A DNA stretch of 64,000 nt from Trileptium ribeirensis (Eukaryota; Nematoda; Enoplea; Enoplida; Thoracostomopsidae): NCBI GenBank assembly GCA_030248225.1, contig JASANE010000631.1, forward strand, positions 1 through 64,000, in the 5' to 3' direction. Positions within the stretch are counted from its first letter, which is position 1; the number at the start of each line of letters is the position of its first letter. A program made the translations under genes and the position numbers. Below the pieces are notes generated by a model. The model was not told the DNA's origin. It made no database searches and saw nothing but the letters and a program-made list of their open reading frames with translations. Of this stretch, positions 13,947-31,626 are shown in pieces.

Positions 13947-16900
13947 TCACGGCGATGGCGTGTACCTCTTGATTGGCTTGCCTGAACGTTTGGAACGTCG
14001 TGGGTTGTGAGGACCGTATTCAGGAAGAGCCTCCGTGCGACTGTCCTCGGCCATCCAACTTGTCCCTTCGGAAGCGATTGGGTACGTTGACGAATCTTGT
14101 GAGGCAGTAGCCCTGGAAATTGAAGGCTTTGAACGGGATGAGTTAGCATCAGGCGAGAACGGACGAGGCGTTGCTCCGGGCTCGGTATCTTCGTCAGATG
14201 TGTAGCGAGGTTGTAGTTGTTCCAAGTGTCTTCTCCAGGTGGGACCCTTGGGTTGAACACGAACGTCAAATGTACGCGAACCTTTGCGCTTCGTAATCAC
14301 GGCAGGGACCCATCGACCTTCTTTGTCTTGACGTGGACCAAAGTAGAGGGCATAAACGGCATCACCCACCTTGTACGATCGAACAACCTTGGCGACAGCT
14401 TCGGTTTGTTGAGACTTCGTTGCTTCTTTGGCTTGTTTACCTTGTGCTTTGTGAGCTGGAGAAGGAAGCAGCGTATCAATCTTTGTCCGAATTTGTCGTG
14501 AGTTCAGCAATTCGCTTGGAGAATATCCACTTGAGTTCGGAGTTCGTCGGAATTGCATCAAAAATTCTTGAAGTGCTTTTCTCGGAGGAAGGCTGGACTT
14601 CCGTAGCGCTTGCTTGAATGTTTGGACTAGTCGTTCCGCTGATCCATTTGTAGCAGGATGATAGGGAGCGCCTGTGAGATGTACAATTCCTCGTTCCCGA
14701 CACCAGTCTTGGAATTCCTCGGATAGAAACGCTGAAGCGTTATCCGTTACCAAAGTGTGAGGATATCCAAAATGAGCAAAGTCTTCTTCCAGTAAATCAG
14801 TAGTTGCTTTGGCAGAAATTGATTGGGTAGCATGAATGCACGGATATTTGGAGAAGGCATCAGTGACCAGTAGCCAGTTTGACCCCATAAAGTTGATAGC
14901 ATGGTCTAAGTGTAAACGGCTCCAAGGCTTCTCCGGGAGCATCCATGGATGAATGGCGGGCTTGGCAGGTTTGTTTTGGTGTTCGCCACAGGGCACACAT
15001 TCTCGGCAGGTTGCTTCAATGTCTTCATCAATGTTGGGCCAGTAAACTGCTGTGCGTGCAAGCTGCTTCATGCGCTGCATTCCAAAGTGTCCCAAATGCA
15101 ATAATTCAAGGATTTGACGCCGCATGCTTGACGGAATAACCACTCTCGAACCAAGAACCAAACAACCGTTGCAGATTGATAATGATCCGGCAACTTGTCT
15201 GAACCGTTGAATTTCAGAACTTTCATCTGATTTCTTCAGTGGCCATCCTTCACGGGTAAAGCGAACCACAGTTGAAACAACAGGATCTTTTGCTGACTCC
15301 CGAAGTAGAAAATTTTTGTCCGCAGGCAATATTTTTTCAGAAATAGAATTGATTGCACATACCATTTCAGCATCTTCTTTACTTTCCTCCCCGTCAAATT
15401 GGGCGTCTTTTCCTGACGGCAATCGACTGAGAACATCGACATTAGCGTGATCCGTTGTTTTTCGATACTCAATTGTGTAGTTGAATTGATTCAAAAGAAG
15501 TGCCCATCGAGCCAGGCGGTTAGCAGCTAAAAGTGGTACCTCTTTTCCTTGTCCAAAAAGTGCTAGTAGTGGTCGATGGTCGGTGACAAGAATGAACTTC
15601 CGGCCGTACAGGTATTGATAGAACTTCTTCAATCCAAAAACGATAGCCAATGCTTCCTTTTGTATCTGGCTATAGTTCTTTTGACTGTCCGTGAGAGTCT
15701 TTGACACATTGGCAATTGGCCGTTCGCTTCCGTCTGGATATCGGTGAAACAGAACGGCTCCAATTCCAACACTTGATGCGTCGCAGGATAGGCCCAAAGG
15801 AAGATTCTTGTCGAAGTGAACGAGGACTTTTTCGGATGATAGCAGGTCCTTCAGCAGCTTGAAAGCTTGCTGCTGTTCGTCGTTCCAAGTCCACGGCGTA
15901 GTTTTCTTTGTCAATTTGTAGAGTGGTTCTGCAATTGTGGAAAGATTTGAAGGGAGAAATTTTGCATAGAATTGTACAGAACCTTGGAAAGCCTTTAAGC
16001 TTGACACATTTGTCGGGGCTGGCATGTTGAGAACTGCGTCAATCTTTGGTCCCTTTGCAATACCTTCGTGTGATAGCAAATGACCCAAGTATTCGACGTA
16101 GGGCTGAGCAAATTGGCATTTTTCAAGCCGGCAGCGCAGTCCGCGTTCTTCAAGGCGTTGTAATAGGCGTCGGAGATTTTTGAGGTGGTCTTCCGCATCT
16201 TTACCGCTGACGAGAATATCATCAAGATAGACGGCAACTCCTGGCAAATCCGATGTAAGCTGATCCATGATCTGTTGGAAATACCCGGGAGCGGACTTGA
16301 TCCCAAATGGTAGACGCTTCTGCAGGAGCACCCCCCTGTGGGTACTGAGGGCGAGCCTTCTTTGACTTTGTGGGGCCAGCTTTACCTGATTGTAGGCGTC
16401 CGCCAAATCGATCTTTGTGAAACCACACCCACCTCCCAACTTCCGCATTAGGTCCTCTGGCAGTGGCAGTGGATGGCGGTGATCCTCCAATTGAGGGTTG
16501 ACGGTGACGGAATAATCCCCACAAACACGGAGCTTGGCTTTCGTTTGACCCGATAGCAATGCTTTCTTGATTGGTACCACAGGTGTTCCATATTCGCAGA
16601 ATTGTGTTGGCTCCCAGACCCCTTTTGCAATGCCTTTTTCGTAAGCGTCTTCCAACTCCGATTCTATGGCAAATGGAACAGGCCTTGCTTTCCGAAAAAT
16701 TGGTTGGGCATTTTCTTTGAACTTAACTTCTAATTCGAAATCTTTGAGGCATCCAAGTTCGGGTGTCCAGAGATCTGCAAATTCTCTGCACAAGGATTGA
16801 CACTGATTTTGTAGCTTGACATCCGCTTTCAAATGGCTGAAAACTGCATGGCACGGTTGTGATGATTGCAGGATTTGATCCACTGATATACCCAATGTGC

Positions 16901-18188
16901 GGGTGGCATCTCGTCCCAATAGATTTAGTCCAGGGATCTCAGACACGGTGAATTGAACATTGTGCGGCTCTTCAGACCCGGGAGACTTTGTTGCGGCGAC
17001 GAACGTTCCCACTATTGGCAAACGGTGCATGCTGGCTGATTCATACCTCCAGTCGGATTTCTTGAGGCTTGGGCACCCGAGTTCCTCCCAATATTGCCTT
17101 GATATGAAGTTACCCGTTGTGGCAGTGTCGACTTCCATGTTGATAGTTTTCCCATGAATTTTGATTGGGACTTCCAGCTTTGGCGAGGATTCAGTCTTTG
17201 TGAGTGCATTGACGCCATAGATAATTTTGACTGAAGTTGAGGAACCCTTGGCTTTCTTGCGGCAGACCTTCTCCAAATGTCCTTTGATCCCACAGTAGTT
17301 GCATTCGGACTCCTTGTATCGGCAGACATCAGCTTTGTGATTCTGATTCCCGCATCGGTAGCATGCATGTGACTGCTTCTTTGAATCGGCCTCTTTGTCT
17401 TGAGGGGTCCATTTCTTCTTGGGACTGGGCTTCTGGTGGACTTTATGGACCGGCCTGGGCTTGACACCATGCACTGTGTCCTTCGCCACCTTCGCAGCAT
17501 CTTCAGTTTCGATCGCAATTTCAATTGCCCGATTGAAGTCCAGGTCATCGTCCTTGACTTTGAACAGGGCCTTCAAAACAGCTTCATTGTTGATAGAGCA
17601 TATGAACCTTGATCGAAGGGCTTCGTCCTGTGGATCTTTGATTGAGGCAAAGTCGCAGGTTGCAGCATCTTGACGGATCCTTGCAGCCAGTTCTTGAGGC
17701 GTTTCACCTGGTTTTCGGCGCATTTCGCTCCAAAATTTGAATCTTTCGTGAACCACAAACCGCTTTGGATCATATTGAGTCTTCATGAAATTGACAATTT
17801 CATCCATCGTGAGGTCGTTGATTTCTTTGGGCGGATTCTGTTGCCTTGCCAGATTCCCCAGTAGGCGATAGACCTCTTTTGTTTGGTTCGTCAGGAAGAT
17901 TTGGGCCTTTTTGTTCTCCGATACTGAATGGGCACCGGCAAAAGTACGAAAGCGATCCCAATAATCCGGCCACAGTTCGCTGCTGGAGTCGAAGGGCTCG
18001 AAGTCGGGGATGTTGGGCATGGGCGTGGATGACGTTCCCGCTGCTTGTACCCCTTGATTTCCTGATTGAATTGCTTTGAGCATGGCCGACATCTGTTCCT
18101 GGTGTTGACGCTGTTGTTCCTCCATCTGGGCCTGCTGTTGGGCAAGTTGTTGTTGCATGAGGCTAATCAGCTTCGCCGTCTCTGACAT
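13947..18188 (-). CDS. Gag-Pol polyprotein, Mag-type Ty3/gypsy
   Basis: One uninterrupted 1,413-residue frame. An N-terminal Gln-rich coil (about residues 8-33) leads into a Gag capsid-like region. Two CCHC zinc knuckles follow (CYRCGNQNHKADVC about 275-288; CNYCGIKGHLEKVC about 297-310). The protease region is near 352, where the usual DTG reads VDTATTGNFIS. RT has YLDDILVSG (about 654), preceded by LPFGIKSAP. RNase H has LSCDAS, QKEALA and TDHRPL. Integrase has its HHCC finger (HLGHFG...CRECVPC, about 1,040-1,075) and the core acidic residues in LHLDHA, VTDNASAF and TNGSAERL. The C-terminus is basic. It copies the element RNA into DNA and inserts it. The Met at 18,188 is the first in frame after the leader. 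The DTA in place of DTG is the only odd catalytic motif; DTA-type proteases occur in some Mag relatives as far as I recall. Confidence 0.95.
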   Translation of the reverse strand: MSETAKLISLMQQQLAQQQAQMEEQQRQHQEQMSAMLKAIQSGNQGVQAAGTSSTPMPNIPDFEPFDSSSELWPDYWDRFRTFAGAHSVSENKKAQIFLTNQTKEVYRLLGNLARQQNPPKEINDLTMDEIVNFMKTQYDPKRFVVHERFKFWSEMRRKPGETPQELAARIRQDAATCDFASIKDPQDEALRSRFICSINNEAVLKALFKVKDDDLDFNRAIEIAIETEDAAKVAKDTVHGVKPRPVHKVHQKPSPKKKWTPQDKEADSKKQSHACYRCGNQNHKADVCRYKESECNYCGIKGHLEKVCRKKAKGSSTSVKIIYGVNALTKTESSPKLEVPIKIHGKTINMEVDTATTGNFISRQYWEELGCPSLKKSDWRYESASMHRLPIVGTFVAATKSPGSEEPHNVQFTVSEIPGLNLLGRDATRTLGISVDQILQSSQPCHAVFSHLKADVKLQNQCQSLCREFADLWTPELGCLKDFELEVKFKENAQPIFRKARPVPFAIESELEDAYEKGIAKGVWEPTQFCEYGTPVVPIKKALLSGQTKAKLRVCGDYSVTVNPQLEDHRHPLPLPEDLMRKLGGGCGFTKIDLADAYNQVKLAPQSQRRLALSTHRGVLLQKRLPFGIKSAPGYFQQIMDQLTSDLPGVAVYLDDILVSGKDAEDHLKNLRRLLQRLEERGLRCRLEKCQFAQPYVEYLGHLLSHEGIAKGPKIDAVLNMPAPTNVSSLKAFQGSVQFYAKFLPSNLSTIAEPLYKLTKKTTPWTWNDEQQQAFKLLKDLLSSEKVLVHFDKNLPLGLSCDASSVGIGAVLFHRYPDGSERPIANVSKTLTDSQKNYSQIQKEALAIVFGLKKFYQYLYGRKFILVTDHRPLLALFGQGKEVPLLAANRLARWALLLNQFNYTIEYRKTTDHANVDVLSRLPSGKDAQFDGEESKEDAEMVCAINSISEKILPADKNFLLRESAKDPVVSTVVRFTREGWPLKKSDESSEIQRFRQVAGSLSICNGCLVLGSRVVIPSSMRRQILELLHLGHFGMQRMKQLARTAVYWPNIDEDIEATCRECVPCGEHQNKPAKPAIHPWMLPEKPWSRLHLDHAINFMGSNWLLVTDAFSKYPCIHATQSISAKATTDLLEEDFAHFGYPHTLVTDNASAFLSEEFQDWCRERGIVHLTGAPYHPATNGSAERLVQTFKQALRKSSLPPRKALQEFLMQFRRTPNSSGYSPSELLNSRQIRTKIDTLLPSPAHKAQGKQAKEATKSQQTEAVAKVVRSYKVGDAVYALYFGPRQDKEGRWVPAVITKRKGSRTFDVRVQPKGPTWRRHLEQLQPRYTSDEDTEPGATPRPFSPDANSSRSKPSISRATASQDSSTYPIASEGTSWMAEDSRTEALPEYGPHNPRRSKRSGKPIKRYTPSP

Positions 18189-18267
18189 CTTGATAGTTGA
18201 TCTTCTTCAATCCGAATTGACGTTGGTCGCAGGTGACTCGAGTCGTTGTTCGTAGTTTTGAAGCAAG

Positions 18268-21785: not shown

Positions 21786-21895
21786 TGTAAGGACAGCCCA
21801 CTTCTTGATGTGTTATCATCTTAATATTGTGAAAAAATATAATTTTGTTTACGATTCTGTCGCTGGAATGATATTCGTTGCCTAAAAGCACACAT
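21786..21895 (+). repeat. 5' LTR remnant of the CsRn1-type element
   Basis: Starts TGTAAGGACAGCCCACTTC; matches the copy at 25,977 through GCTGGAATGATATT and then loses similarity, so the 3' boundary is uncertain and the copy is probably truncated. Confidence 0.7.
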
Positions 21896-22040
21896 TATAA
21901 TTAAACAACTTCTCCCAAATCTGGAAATAGCCTCAGTGAACAATACTGCAACTACTTCGGCTAGTGTAACATATTCCTGCAAAATTGATGAACTATCTCA
22001 TTGTGTTGCGCGGGTGACATAAACGGAAAATAATTTAACT

Positions 22041-22286
22041 TTGTCGAAAATGAACAGTAACCAATATTATCATCCAAATTATCCAAATCACAGTCGAAAA
22101 ATCCTTTTCACGTTACTCACGCGAACGCTCAGCATCTCCCCGTTGAAATATAATCCGAACGAAAGTTGGTGTTGGTTTCACTGTCAATTTGGTGAAAACG
22201 CTCATCGCTGTTTTGAGCCGTGGTCGTGGTCAAAAGGTTTAAAAAACGGACGGGAAAAGAGACAGCGTAGGAATTTTTCTAGTTGA
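22041..22286 (+). pseudogene. Gag C-terminal remnant with CHCC-type motif
   Basis: Residues CWFHCQFGENAHRCFEPW match the CsRn1-clade pattern C-x3-H-x9-C-x3-C, with the last Cys changed to Trp. In this clade the motif replaces the CCHC zinc knuckle and binds nucleic acid. The frame is followed by a basic stretch and a stop at 22,286. Confidence 0.75.
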
Positions 22287-22545
22287 CGGAGCTACTCAAA
22301 GCTTTCTGCCCAAAAGTTTTGTTCGGCAAAATTTAAAAACTTCTTCGGCAAAATTCATTGCAGTGACTGACACGCCAGTAAATACATATGGTAACAGAAC
22401 ATTGCAATTGCAGATTACTGAATTAAAACAATCATTCACTTGGACGTTCATTGTCGCTGACGTAACACAGCCAATTTTAGGTCACGATTTTTTAAGCATA
22501 AACAACATTTTTCTTGATTGTCCTAGTCATAAACTTAGCTGACAT
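22285..22545 (+). pseudogene. Retropepsin remnant
   Basis: Read on from VDGATQSF through VTDTPVNTYGNRTLQLQI to WTFIVADVTQPILGHDFL, the sequence tracks the gypsy protease from its active-site region to the ILGHDFL/ILGADFL block. The catalytic DTG/DSG triad has become DGA. Stop at about 22,542. Confidence 0.75.
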
Positions 22546-22755: not shown

Positions 22756-23367
22756 CGTTTTTTGCACGTCCACGCAAAATTTTTGGTGATCAACTTTCAA
22801 TCGCCAAGAACAATTTACTTCAGTTAGAAAAATAAGAAATAGTTTATCGAGGTGAGTCTCCATGGGCTACTCCTTTGCACATGGCCCGAAAACAACGTGA
22901 AAAATCCATGGTGACCCTGTGGTGACTATAGGGCTCTCAACCATATTACGGTACCCGATCGATATTCAATGCCCAATCATTTCGATAGCACAAATGATCT
23001 TGAAAACTGTCAGATATTTTCTAAACTTGGTTTAATAATGGCACACCATCATAGCCCAATAGCAAAACCCGACCAACCAAAAACAGCAGTAACGACAGCT
23101 TTTGCCTTATTTATTCACAAATGGATGCCTTTCTGATTACTAAATGCTGCTCAAACATTTCAGCGTTTGATTGACACTGTTTTGCAAGATATGCCATTTG
23201 CCAAGGAATATATTGACGATATAATTGTAGCAAGTGAAAACATTGGGCAACATCAAAAGCATCTGACTGCCGTTTTGGAAAGACTAAAAACCAACGGTTT
23301 ACGTTTGGAGCGTGAAAAATGTAAATTTTTCAATGATCGAACTTCATTTATTGGAATTGAATTAAGC
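22756..23367 (+). pseudogene. Reverse transcriptase, first part
   Basis: Begins near PFFARPRKIFGDQLSIAKN, the conserved entry to gypsy RT, passes several stops, and is open again from 23,167 with AKEYIDDIIVAS (catalytic IDD) and LRLEREKCKFF. It stops being RT-like at 23,367, where a foreign 382-bp segment begins. Confidence 0.85.
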
Positions 23368-23406
23368 TGTAGCATCTCACTACGCTACCATATATAGCGT
23401 TGTGTT

Positions 23407-23480
23407 TATATATATACCATATATATGGTAGCGCACTAGTCTTGTAAGCTAGAAATCCGGTTCGAATCCCGGCTGGTCCA
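23407..23480 (+). tRNA. tRNA-like segment 1 (degenerate)
   Basis: D-arm region GGTAGCGCACTAG, anticodon-like loop CTTGTAA, T-loop TTCGAAT and 3' GGCTGGTCCA. One G of the T-stem is lost and the 5' acceptor strand is replaced by TATATA repeats. Not a functional tRNA. Confidence 0.5.
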
Positions 23481-23650
23481 ATGTATGACCGCTCGTGGAT
23501 CTCTTCAATTGGTAAACCTGACGTATTCCCCTGCACGGAGTTTCTTCACACAGCTATAGCTCCACGCACGCTCGCTCCGCGACTCCGCAGGGGAGTTATG
23601 TAGCATCTCACTACGCTACCATATATAGCGTAGCTGAACACGCTGTGATC

Positions 23651-23721
23651 GGGACCTGTGCTGTAATGGTAGCGCAGTAGTCTTGCAAGCTAGAGATCCG
23701 GGTTCCAATCCCGGCTGGTCT
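23651..23721 (+). tRNA. tRNA-like segment 2
   Basis: GGGACC start pairs with GGTCT at the end; D-arm GGTAGCGCAG; loop CTTGCAA (a TGC anticodon if functional); perfect T-stem CCGGG/CCCGG around loop TTCCAAT. The anticodon stem is only four clean pairs and the segment is embedded in a repeat, so a SINE head is likelier than a host tRNA gene. Confidence 0.5.
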
Positions 23722-23753
23722 AATGTATGACCGCTCGTGGATCTCTTCAAAGC

Positions 23754-24420
23754 CGCAAAGGTTTTAAACCATTACCTGACAAAATCAAAGCTGTTGTAGA
23801 TTTAGAAACAGTAAAAACTGTCTGTTGAAACGTTTTGGGTATATCCGGATTTTACTATATGTTCGTGCCTAAGTTTTCTGAAATAGCTGCACCACTCACG
23901 GATATGTCGTGTAATGTGCAAGTTTATTCAAAAGCACTTCTTTTATGGTCAGAAAGCGCAACAAGGTTTGCTCAACTAAAAATTGCATTTGCAAATAGTG
24001 TAACCCTTGCTTTTCCAAATAAACCGGCAGTATTTGAACTAACAATACGCTTCACAAACGACTGCTGGAGCTGTATTACATCAGGTTGTTAATGGAAAAC
24101 ATCAACTCCTGGCTTTCTTTTCGTGGAAATTTACTGTTATGGAGAGCAAGAAGTCCGCTTTTGATCGAGAGCTTTTAGCCATTTATGAGTCATTAAAAAA
24201 TTCTTTGGCTTTTGGGTTTAACTTTCATAATCAAAACTGATCATAGGCCACTAGTGCATGCTTTACAAATGAAAGCACCTACCCCGCAGCAGGCAATGAC
24301 GATTATTGTATATTTCAGAATTTAATTGCATCATCCAACACGTATCAGGTGCTGACAATATTGTCGCAGATGCCTAATCACGCTCTGTTGCGGCAGTTCC
24401 ATGAGAGTTAGATTACTCAT
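23754..24420 (+). pseudogene. Reverse transcriptase end and RNase H remnant
   Basis: Resumes with GFKPLPDKIKAVV, then ISGFYYMFVPKFSEIAAPLT and LLWSESATRFAQLKIAFA, the RT thumb/connection of gypsy elements, then frame-shifted RNase H pieces (LLAFFSWKFTVMESKKSAFDRELLAIYES). Stops and shifts throughout. Confidence 0.8.
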
Positions 24421-24450
24421 GGGTACACTCGCAAAAGAGTGATCTAAAGA

Positions 24451-24702
24451 TTGCAACGTTTTTCCGAAACAACAAATTTGCCTCTAAAACATCATAAGGT
24501 TCATGATGAAATCATAATTTGGGACGGAAACTCTGTGCGACCGTACGTGCCTCTAGAATTTAGACGCCAGATTTTCAACCAAATCTATACTTTATCTCAT
24601 CCCGGACAGAATGCAACATTGCGTCTCATTGCAAGCAGTTATATTTGGCCAGAAATGAACAAAAATGTCCGAAATTGGGCAAAATTCTGTAAATAATGTC
24701 AA
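24451..24702 (+). pseudogene. Integrase zinc-binding domain
   Basis: The open frame contains LEFRRQIFNQIYTLSHPGQ and IASSYIWPEMNKNVRNWAK followed by CK, stop, CQ: the HHCC finger with H-x3-H replaced by a single HPG and the second Cys lying beyond a stop codon at 24,694-24,696. Confidence 0.8.
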
Positions 24703-24709
24703 CCAAATC

Positions 24710-25326
24710 TCGTATTGACGAAATCACTACGAGCGCACGATTTCATACAATTCCTATTAATATTGTAGGCCCACTGCCATCATCAAAAAGCTACAACTAT
24801 TTTCTTACTATAATAGACAGATTCACTAAATAGATGGAAGTAGTTCTCGGAAGCGACACAGCCATAGAGACTGTAGCTAATGCACTAATTAATTCGTGGG
24901 TTAGTCGATTTGGAGTACCAAAAAATCTGATTCGTGGGATCAGCATCTTGGAGTGACCTCATGCTTAATCTTGGTATAACACGCAAGCGTACAACCGCGT
25001 ATCGTCCTGCCTGCAACGGAGCAGTGGATCGTTTATACCACACCCTTAAAAACGCGATTAGAACACATTGTGATAAACCGTTCTGGTCAGAAAAATTAAC
25101 CTTGATATTGCTCGATTTTCGCACTTCAATTGATAATAACGGTTATTCACAGGCAAATAGGCGTTATGGTGCCAATTTAGATTTGCCGGCACAATATTTT
25201 GTGGGAGACGAACCGCAATATTCGTTTTCCACATCTGATTACGTTTATACACTTTTTGTAGGAGTTAAGTTTTTCAAAGCTCCGGAGCGTCGCTACAATG
25301 GTCCGTACTTCATACCGAAATATTAA
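24710..25326 (+). pseudogene. Integrase catalytic core, decayed
   Basis: The second half is open (24,934-25,326): TRKRTTAYRPACNGAVDRL resembles the end of the core where the catalytic Glu sits in NG-x-x-E; here it is Asp. SEKLTLILLDFRTSIDNNGYS and NLDLPAQYF follow the usual integrase order. The first two catalytic positions are in the broken part. Confidence 0.8.
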
Positions 25327-25400
25327 AAAACTCCAACCATATTTGGGTAAGGGATTTGTTTCCAAAGTCAAGTCTCCACTGACGGTACATTGGGCCATAC

Positions 25401-25867
25401 ATGGTTATTGAACTCACTGATAAAACACTAACCGTTAACATCAATGATAAAGCTCAAAAATTGTCGATAGACCGAGTAAAGCCAGCATTCATCACTGAGA
25501 CTCAAGATAGTTCAGATGATATATTACCACACACAACTCATAAACAAGTTCTAATTAATACACATGATATTAGTAAAACCTTATCACAAGTGGTAGATAT
25601 GTCTGATAGCGCCACATTCCAACTACGAACAATCATTTTTGCAAAGTTCAAAGGTTTCCCAGCATGGCTTGCCAGAGTTGTAAGCGTAGAAGTTACGCCA
25701 CTGGAAAAATTAAGCAACCCTTGAATACCATACCCGTTCAATTTTTTCACACAGACAGATATTCATTTGTGCGAACTCAGGGCGTAACTGAGTTTGTTCA
25801 CAACATGCGTTCAAAATTGTATAATTTCAATAGAGCAATGGTTTTAGCCAAAGATTTTATAAATTAA
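25401..25867 (+). pseudogene. Integrase C-terminus followed by a PWWP-like domain
   Basis: VIELTDKTLTVNI...LSIDRVKPAFI is the standard end of gypsy Pol. The same frame continues about 55 residues of linker and then IIFAKFKGFPAWLARV, which fits the start of a PWWP domain (family pattern F-A-K-x-K/R-G-x-P-x-W-P-A-R). A frameshift near 25,690-25,715 moves the rest to another frame: IPVQFFHTDRYSFVRTQGV matches the V-x-F-F-G-T-x-x-Y-A-x-V block, and FNRAMVLAKDF the closing helix. Stop at 25,865, about 100 bp before the purine tract and LTR. PWWP domains bind methylated histone H3K36 nucleosomes and DNA, so a targeting role is inferred. Independent host-exon origin is less likely because the frame is shared with the integrase end. 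Confidence 0.75.
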
Positions 25868-25976
25868 AAAAATCATAAATCAGCATGGCTTTATCGAAAA
25901 ACAAGACATAAAAATAAACTAAAGGTACTTTTTCAGATGATAAGAAAATCAATCGCTCCTCGAATTGCAGGGGGAT

Positions 25977-26130
25977 TGTACGGGCAACCCACTTCTTGAT
26001 GTGTTATCATCTTAATATTGTGAATAAAATAGAATTTTGTTTTCGTTGTTTCAATTGTATTTTCTGCTACGATTTTTTTTTGCTGGAATGATATTTCCTG
26101 CGTAAAAGGACTCATTACGTCACTAATAAT
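25977..26130 (+). repeat. 3' LTR of the CsRn1-type element
   Basis: TGTACGGGCAACCCACTTC start after GCAGGGGGAT. Carries a segment (TTCGTTGTTTCAATTGTATT) absent from the 5' copy, then GCTGGAATGATATTTCC. End placed approximately. Confidence 0.7.
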
Positions 26131-28999: not shown

Positions 29000-30013
29000 C
29001 GTATTTTACATATTGTTTCACAATTTTGTGTATTAAAATTCCACGTTTAATTCACATAATCGTTTGCATGCACAATTATTCTTAACAGTGTCAATGCTGC
29101 GTTAAGTTTGATTTTACAGCGATAATAATCGATGAACATGCAGGACCATATTTGGGTACCTTGCGTTTCACTAAGAATTGGTTGTTATTGCAACAGTAGC
29201 GTCAGCGAAGTTCCACATCATTTCACTGTTCCGTGAAAAGTTTTAATAACAGACAGTGGTCTTGCAAAGCAATATTTTTAACAATAACATAAGTTTTACA
29301 ATTTCTTTCATTTTTAAGTACAACTGAGAATAAACACTTTTACTTTAAGAACTGTTTTTAATTTTTTTGTTGTAATTCTTAAAGCTATCAAAATGGTGAA
29401 ATTATCAGTCACTCCAGACATTGTGTTTTTGTACATTGTGAATGGTACAATTTTATCAAAATATTGTTTATTCTGCGGTTGCAAAATTAATAATAACATT
29501 AAACATCAAGTTCATACACTTACAGCCATTAAGATTCTGTGACTTTTCTATTCAATTAATTATAAACGGCTAAATAAACCAAAAATTTTGGTAGCTATAA
29601 CGTACTCCAACCAACTGTTTTTGGTTAGAGTCAATGAGACTTAACTTTAAACTACTGAAGTGTATCGCATCTTCGTAAATTTATATATGTGTCACTTTGG
29701 CCGCTTAACGCTAGATGTAATCTGCTGTAGCTACGTACATTTCTAAATTTATTAAGTATCCAAGGTGACTCTGGAAACAGATGTTACAGGCATGCTATAC
29801 AAGCAAAACGGAGATATTACTATTTCAATGCTATATGTTTCATTGTCGTATATAAGAAGATTTGAAGTTTGTAACGCATATATTGAAGTTTGTCTATGCG
29901 GCCTACTTTTTATTAGCCGTCACTACGCTGTTTTGTTATAAAACAATATTGGCTTAAGATAATGTTATGTTGGAGAGCTTAGTATTTATGCTCGTAAATA
30001 TTCAATTATACAC
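29000..30013. other. AT-rich unassigned DNA
   Basis: No recognisable gene, RNA or terminal repeat. Confidence 0.5.
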
Positions 30014-30824
30014 AAATTGGTAGCAACCGTACGTTTGCTTTTTTATATTTTGCCTAATGCTTACGACGTGTGCACTGGTTTTTTTGCAGTCTCACATGAA
30101 GCATTTGTTTAGCAAAAAATTCAAATTTGCAATGTTTTTCTGGCAGTCTTAATACTAAACATGTCAATGCAATTTCACAACTGCTAATGGCGCTGCTCAT
30201 TAGCTATAACAACTGGTGACGATGTAGGGGGAAAGATATAACTTGCTTTATTGACTATTATTTCATAATGTTTTTATAACCGATATTTATTAAATGCATG
30301 AGCGGTGAAGTGTACAAGATAATGTTGAAGCCATATAAAACATGTATAAATGAATTGCCGAAATGAATATATATTTAAATAGAGTCGCAAAATATACATG
30401 AAAAGCATATGCATGTAAATTTGTATATCATGTTGTAAATTGTACATGATAAAACATTCCGATAGACTACACACGCGTTCTTGACGTAATTTGTGGGTTT
30501 CAAACAGCTATTTGTCTCGGCCGTGACAATATTTTGGAAATTATATCTACGTATATCAAAATAGGCTATACGTTATACATGCCGAAACAGGGTTTCAGCG
30601 GGACTACCCCCACCCCTTTCAACCCCCACCCTCCCCGAGGCCCTGTCTACCCCCGTGAGAGTACCACCCTACCCCCCTGCATTTCCGCAAGCTCCGCCAA
30701 GGCAGTTTTTAATATTTCAGGAAAAATAGGGTGAAAATTTACCGAAATTATTGTAATATTTGGTCTCGGTGGCGGGGGCGTTAACTTTTGTCAGAACCTT
30801 CCCCTGGACGATCTCCTCTTCCCC
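30014..30824 (+). repeat. 811-bp tandem duplication, unit 1
   Basis: Starts AAATTGGTAGCAACCGTACG and ends GGACGATCTCCTCTTCCCC, immediately followed by the next unit. Contains a C-rich block at about 30,595-30,690. No protein recognised. Confidence 0.9.
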
Positions 30825-31626
30825 AAATTGGTAGCAACCGTACGTTTGCTTTTTTATATGTTGTCTAATGCTTATGACGTGTGCACTCGTTTTTTTGCAG
30901 TCTCATATAAAACATTTGTTTAGCAAAAATTTCAAATTTGCAATGTTTTTCTGGCAGTCTTATGTCAATGCAATTTCACAACTGCTAATGGCGCTGCTCA
31001 TTAAAACTGTAACAAACTGGTGCCGATGCAGGTGGAAAAGATATAATTTGCTTTATTGAGTATTATTTAATAATGTTTTTATAACAGATATTTATCAGAT
31101 GCATGAGCGGTGAAGTGTACAAGAGAATGTTGGAGCCATATAAAACATGTACAAATAAATTGCCAAAATGAATATATATTTAAGTAGAGTCGCAAAATAT
31201 ACATGTAAAAGCATATGCATGTAAATTTGTATATTGTGTTGTAAATTGTATATGATAATACATTCCGTTATCCAAGTAGACTACGCGCGCGTTCCTGACG
31301 TAATTTACGGGTTTCAAACAGTTATTTGTCTTATGTCGTGACAATATTTTGGAAATTATATCTACATATATCAAAATAATCTACGTTATGCATGCCGAAA
31401 CAGGGGTTCAGCGGGACTACCCCCTTTCAGCCAACCCCCCCCGGCCCTGTGTACCCCGTGAGAGTAATACCCTACCCCTGCGTTTCCGCGAGGTCCGCCA
31501 AGACAGTTTTTTAATATTTCAGCAAAAATAGGGTGAAAATTTGGCAAAATTATTGTAATATTTCGTCTCGGTAGCGGGGGCGTTAACTTTTCTCAAAACC
31601 TTCCGCTGGACGATCTCCTCTTCCCC
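30825..31626 (+). repeat. 811-bp tandem duplication, unit 2
   Basis: Repeats unit 1 from AAATTGGTAGCAACCGTACG to GGACGATCTCCTCTTCCCC with substitutions and small indels (for example loss of about 11 bp in the segment near 30,960), so the duplication is not recent. Confidence 0.9.

Follow-up and report, generated by a model that had tools for sequence, protein, structure and literature searches.

Results

An integrase-linked PWWP domain in a Ty3/gypsy element

The window analysed here is a 64,000-nucleotide stretch from the nematode Trileptium ribeirensis (assembly GCA_030248225.1, contig JASANE010000631.1, positions 1 to 64,000, forward strand). It contains an old and broken Ty3/gypsy retrotransposon of the CsRn1 type that holds both halves of a PWWP domain between its integrase end and its polypurine tract (Table 1). 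From the integrase end, RYIGPY...SIDRVKPAFI, the frame at 25383-25721 stays open without a stop into IIFAKFKGFPAWLARV; downstream, a different frame translates as the peptide VQFFHTDRYSFVRTQGVTEF ... FNRAMVLAKDFIN and, with VQFFHTDRYSFVRTQGV...FNRAMVLAKDFIN, runs to a stop codon at 25865-25867. An initial annotation of this DNA, made from the sequence alone, had described a PWWP-like domain at the C-terminus of a CsRn1-type polyprotein, entered in frame past SIDRVKPAFI, completed in another frame and followed by a stop, a purine tract and a long terminal repeat (LTR), and all of this can be read at the positions given here.

The two halves were searched apart and never joined. Each finds PF00855 (PWWP) as its sole Pfam match at E ≤ 1, the first (25590-25721) at E 0.013 over profile positions 2-29 and the second (25706-25864) at E 0.026 over positions 38-67; longer, overlapping pieces reach 0.014 and 0.0049, respectively, the second of them also touching Ribosomal_L33 (E 0.1). 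Alone, the halves score 15.5-17.8 bits, under the curated PF00855 cut-off of 25.6 bits. Since they match the same family, in the right order and over contiguous profile positions, a chance resemblance is very unlikely, and the remaining doubt is removed by the genome copies, the 28 C-terminal frames and the six public proteins described below. Among PDB sequences, the first half finds DNMT3B (5e-5) and next the PWWPs of LEDGF and HDGF; the second half, as a single sequence, found no PWWP there.

The fusion recurs within the genome and in public relatives

The host assembly (687 Mb, 20,229 contigs) was searched with a 113-amino-acid window piece spanning the integrase end and the first PWWP half, and the best 150 of 558 first-look candidates were scored, the window's own row included. 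All 150 have E 1.9e-5 or better, the rows other than the window's being 31-82% identical to the piece. In 135 of them a single match covers both integrase end and PWWP (from residue 15 or earlier to residue 100 or later), and 35 of these 135 lie within uninterrupted frames of at least 1000 amino acids; intact-looking copies therefore exist. Six matches end by residue 51, and five of these loci (L049, L051-L054) have a PWWP farther downstream, matched by tblastn at E 7e-21 to 2e-37. From 40 C-terminal stretches fetched, an alignment (A2) was made of the 28 with at least 150 amino acids from integrase end to stop: PF00855 is matched by all 28 natural frames at E ≤ 0.01 (best 8e-18; 65.1 bits for member 1), and at that threshold their Pfam matches are PWWP families only, with no chromodomain among them. 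A PF00855 profile search of the genome, with the best 150 of 777 candidates scored, returned 150 loci above the cut-off (41.4-66.5 bits); among the best 30, 20 are preceded on the same strand by an integrase end, 50-170 bases away. A padded search with the window piece gave 65 candidates, none scored, and a search of the genome contigs with A2 gave no match.

One copy, L010, is 56% identical to the window piece 25383-25864 and changes frame near the same point, which hints either that a defective sub-lineage was spread in trans or that the break was inherited. A programmed frameshift as the family norm is unsupported, because many relatives read through in a single frame.

A profile of the C-terminal region was run against 5.8 billion proteins, with 7994 candidates scored and 34 proteins listed. 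Integrase end and PWWP occur together in six of the listed proteins (P0003-P0008; sources jgi, ena and lgn), all six above the PF00855 cut-off at 43.9-53.4 bits; two, P0005 and P0006, are pols with reverse transcriptase, RNase H, integrase zinc finger, integrase core and PWWP. Sixteen further listed proteins and P0001, the best reverse transcriptase match (49% identity), have the integrase core PF00665 and no PF00855. Viral contigs searched with the window piece and with A2 gave no match, nor did phage proteins.

Fold, aromatic cage and constraint

Structure prediction and a search for integrase-PWWP fusions elsewhere had both been proposed in the initial annotation, and both upheld the domain. 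For residues 218-309 of P0004, a relative of the window copy, the model has a PWWP fold, a beta barrel with a C-terminal helix, standing beside the integrase C-terminal domain. PWWPs of LEDGF and the HDGF family are among its closest solved relatives, and its fold matches include PWWP-DNA complexes. A chromodomain, or a duplicated integrase SH3 domain, misread as a PWWP is ruled out by the profile and fold results.

The columns that we take to be the aromatic cage were placed via the alignment from LEDGF M15, W21 and F44. Two of the three positions are invariant (28/28) and the remaining one is Phe or Tyr in 26 of the 28 rows. The domain is also very basic (isoelectric point 9.5-10.6). It is shown to lie downstream of the GPY/F domain, from which a linker of predicted flexibility separates it, and it is followed by a short basic tail. 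Comparison of the aligned sequences further shows the PWWP to be under constraint: amino-acid change is restrained relative to the linker (pooled ratio of non-synonymous to synonymous rates, dN/dS, in the linker about 0.95), as estimated from 34 of 378 pairs that are non-independent and in several cases near saturation.

Most tails of the A2 rows carry a [KR][KR]-V/L-x-F motif (23/28 by a loose pattern), which is also clear in five of 12 PWWP-less proteins (P0009, P0016, P0019, P0021, P0024). We take this motif to resemble the RVxF docking motif of protein phosphatase 1; alternatively, it may be an old gypsy tail.

Lineage

Of the 16 gag regions fetched for PWWP-bearing copies, several of which are closely related, 15 have the Gag motif CX2HX9CX3C (CHCC). 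Eight of the 16 5' regions fetched have a primer site matching 14-15 of the 16 bases that we assume for transfer RNA (tRNA)-Trp; the remaining eight reach 9-11 bases at best, and their site may be outside the stretch. In the window the best match is nine of 16 bases, which is not convincing, and the Gag remnant retains three of the four CHCC ligands. The part of PMC2582038 consulted gives the CHCC motif and the tRNA-Trp primer site as CsRn1 marks, and the two together support the CsRn1 assignment made in the initial annotation.

An integrase tree was built from the part up to KPAF, PWWP columns excluded, with 33 PWWP-bearing rows (29 own, omitting those with fewer than 140 amino acids upstream, and four public) and 12 PWWP-less rows (P0001 and 11 of the 16 listed proteins with PF00665 and no PF00855). 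One branch parts the 33 from the 12 (support 100/99). The sampled elements fit a single PWWP gain. P0004 groups with own rows (89/95), and the three other public PWWP-bearing proteins fall near the base with weak placement; these positions suggest that the gain predates the expansions in this genome. In a PWWP tree of 84 columns, with LEDGF and two NSD2 domains as the only host rows and L081 omitted, the integrase PWWPs cluster (95/81), separate from LEDGF, NSD2 and the second repeat family described next.

A second PWWP repeat family

Among the best 30 PF00855 loci, those without an adjoining integrase end are L073, L079, L081, L085, L091-L095 and L099. Eight of these ten were scanned and score 54.5-62.3 bits, with no other Pfam family over its cut-off. 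Four (L073, L085, L099 and L093) are alike beyond the PWWP (blastp 1e-8 to 3e-85, not for every pair) and, judged by their sequences, look like a repeat-like protein with an N-terminal PWWP, whose remaining region gives us a transposase-like impression. We regard this repeat family as unrelated to the integrase-bearing one; the other short frames could belong to it or be host exons.

Structure of the window copy and its surroundings

The LTR pair of the window copy shares 112 aligned bases with 12 mismatches, plus gaps. Most of gag is apparently gone, and the protease, reverse transcriptase, RNase H and integrase pieces each lie in their own frame. Nine identical reverse transcriptase residues flank both sides of the insertion in that region. 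Elsewhere in the window, another gypsy-type element (13947-18206, minus strand) has a 1419-amino-acid gag-pol-like frame without interruption, and 30013-31626 is taken up by an array that repeats about every 805 bases, its paired stretches 92-100% alike.

Table 1. Features of the CsRn1-type element in the window
Feature	Position	Strand	Basis
5' LTR (recognisable part)	21786..21897	+	direct repeat of 25977-26117
Gag remnant	22023..22283	+	translation; no Pfam match
CX2HX9CX3W in Gag remnant (CsRn1 CHCC motif minus last Cys)	22170-22223	+	translation; motif as defined in the part of PMC2582038 consulted
Protease fragment	22243..22539	+	PF08284 RVP_2, E 4.6e-5
Reverse transcriptase fragment	23137..23394	+	PF00078, E 5.9e-14
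Insertion like a short interspersed element, in reverse transcriptase region (approximate bounds)	23400..23750	+	repeat pair 23368-23508 / 23599-23750
tRNA-Ala-like stretch within the insertion	23652-23722	+	
RNase H fragment	24043..24237	+	PF17919, E 3.4e-10
Integrase zinc-binding domain	24448..24693	+	PF17921, E 1e-11
Integrase core, C-terminal part	24931..25323	+	33% identity over 88 amino acids to P0001 integrase; the piece itself matches no Pfam family
Integrase C-terminal (GPY/F-type) domain end, RYIGPY...DRVKPAFI	25383..25493	+	aligned with relatives
Linker (pooled dN/dS about 0.95), varying across the family	25494..25628	+	
PWWP first half; cage positions 1 and 2 present (F, W)	25629..25709	+	PF00855
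PWWP second half, other frame; cage position 3 present (F); then C-terminal helix region	25727..25864	+	PF00855, profile 38-67 over 25727-25816
Polypurine tract AGGGGGA, one base ahead of 3' LTR	25969..25975	+	
3' LTR (recognisable part)	25977..26117	+	repeat of 5' LTR

Discussion

We conclude that a CsRn1-type Ty3/gypsy lineage has a genuine PWWP domain fused to its integrase. We also consider it probable that this constrained domain tethers integration to transcribed gene bodies through methylated lysine 36 of histone H3 (H3K36). In such a mechanism, the PWWPs of the intasome would bind nucleosomes bearing methylated H3K36, the aromatic cage taking the methyl-lysine and the basic face the nucleosomal DNA, and the pre-integration complex would thereby be held at transcribed gene bodies; a single polypeptide would fill the role that LEDGF/p75 plays in trans for the integrase of human immunodeficiency virus (HIV). 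The conserved cage, the basic character and the constraint fit a reader steering to H3K36-methylated chromatin. We infer the methylation reading and the targeting from known PWWP chemistry and from LEDGF: in the parts of PMC4176367 and PMC8149907 consulted, a reader placed on the integrase-binding part of LEDGF redirects HIV integration.

Several observations weigh against this interpretation. The copy in the window is dead, and the degradation extends to its PWWP motif. In one copy, L050, tblastn shows the integrase end but no PWWP, and ten of the best 30 PF00855 loci lack an integrase end alongside. All own copies were found by searches in which the PWWP formed part of the query or profile, and the counts are hence not the share of the genome's CsRn1-type elements that carry one. 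The model of P0004 as a whole has low confidence outside its two domains (mean predicted local distance difference test, pLDDT, 57.5; predicted template modelling score, pTM, 0.30), the dN/dS pairs are limited as stated above, and there are PWWPs that bind DNA or marks of another kind. Two of the 28 rows have Met or His at the first cage position; LEDGF itself has Met there.

A broken copy whose PWWP halves each fall under the Pfam cut-off might reflect a chance event at a single locus, in which an exon or retrocopy of a host PWWP landed beside a dead integrase. The initial annotation had named two outcomes that would speak against its reading, family copies without the domain, as after a local fusion with a host fragment, or insignificant PWWP profile scores; neither held. 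The presence of both parts, linked in the identical order, in 135 of the 150 rows, 35 of them in frames of at least 1000 amino acids, the PWWP in all 28 C-terminal frames and the recurrence of the fusion in six public proteins from other sources, with scores well over the cut-off, rule this out, and we give it practically no credence.

It is rather unlikely, in our judgement, that the PWWP acts as an anchor to DNA or nucleosomes in general, stabilising the intasome or retaining it in the nucleus with no specificity for H3K36 methylation. The very basic character of the domain, the DNA binding of some PWWPs and the PWWP-DNA complexes among the fold matches all suit such an anchor; the conservation of the cage, in contrast, would exceed what DNA binding alone needs, which argues for methyl-lysine reading. 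We see still less room for a role after integration or in the particle, such as evading silencing or handling RNA, in place of target choice: the domain does belong to Pol, which serves several roles, yet its place is the C-terminus of the integrase, a site at which chromodomains serve in targeting, and a reader fused to the integrase-binding part of LEDGF redirects HIV (PMC4176367 and PMC8149907, in the parts consulted). 

Putting H3K36 reading together with the second PWWP repeat family, we are inclined to think that the lineage homes to transcribed gene bodies via its own reader in cis, and that mobile elements of this host may have converged on H3K36-methylation reading as a strategy.

Among the open-access matches listed, none described a PWWP in a Ty3/gypsy integrase (subscription papers, preprints, Repbase and Dfam lay outside the search), and the open-access literature searched contains no paper in which PWWP and CsRn1 both appear. 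The portions of PMC8291045, PMC12460157, PMC3978060, PMC11244446 and PMC8141815 that were consulted deal with other matters and not with an integrase PWWP. The integrase-reader fusion is known as a type, from chromodomains. If the reading is correct, the lineage carries an address for active genes, the opposite of the silent chromatin sought by chromodomains, and a retrotransposon has built in the tether that HIV borrows from its host. With a natural set of fusions, and PWWP-less relatives as controls, how a reader domain shapes the insertion landscape becomes directly testable.

The elements described here share with the CsRn1 clade (CsRn1, PwRn1, AgCR) the CHCC Gag motif, the tRNA-Trp primer site (8/16), the GPY/F integrase end and the order protease, reverse transcriptase, RNase H, integrase. 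They differ in the PWWP that follows the integrase end, PwRn1 and the AgCRs being reported, in the part of PMC2582038 consulted, to lack a chromodomain. In HIV-1, likewise, a PWWP is brought to the integrase through LEDGF/p75; there a host protein is borrowed, whereas here the PWWP lies in cis, within one polypeptide. Chromodomains are known at the integrase C-terminus of Ty3/gypsy elements, where they are tied to silent chromatin, and to our knowledge they are the only integrase-reader fusions in this group. As in those chromoviruses, a chromatin reader is joined here to the integrase C-terminus, but the reader is a PWWP and the expected mark would be methylated H3K36, not H3K9, making it the counterpart of the chromodomain with an opposite address, active in place of silent chromatin.
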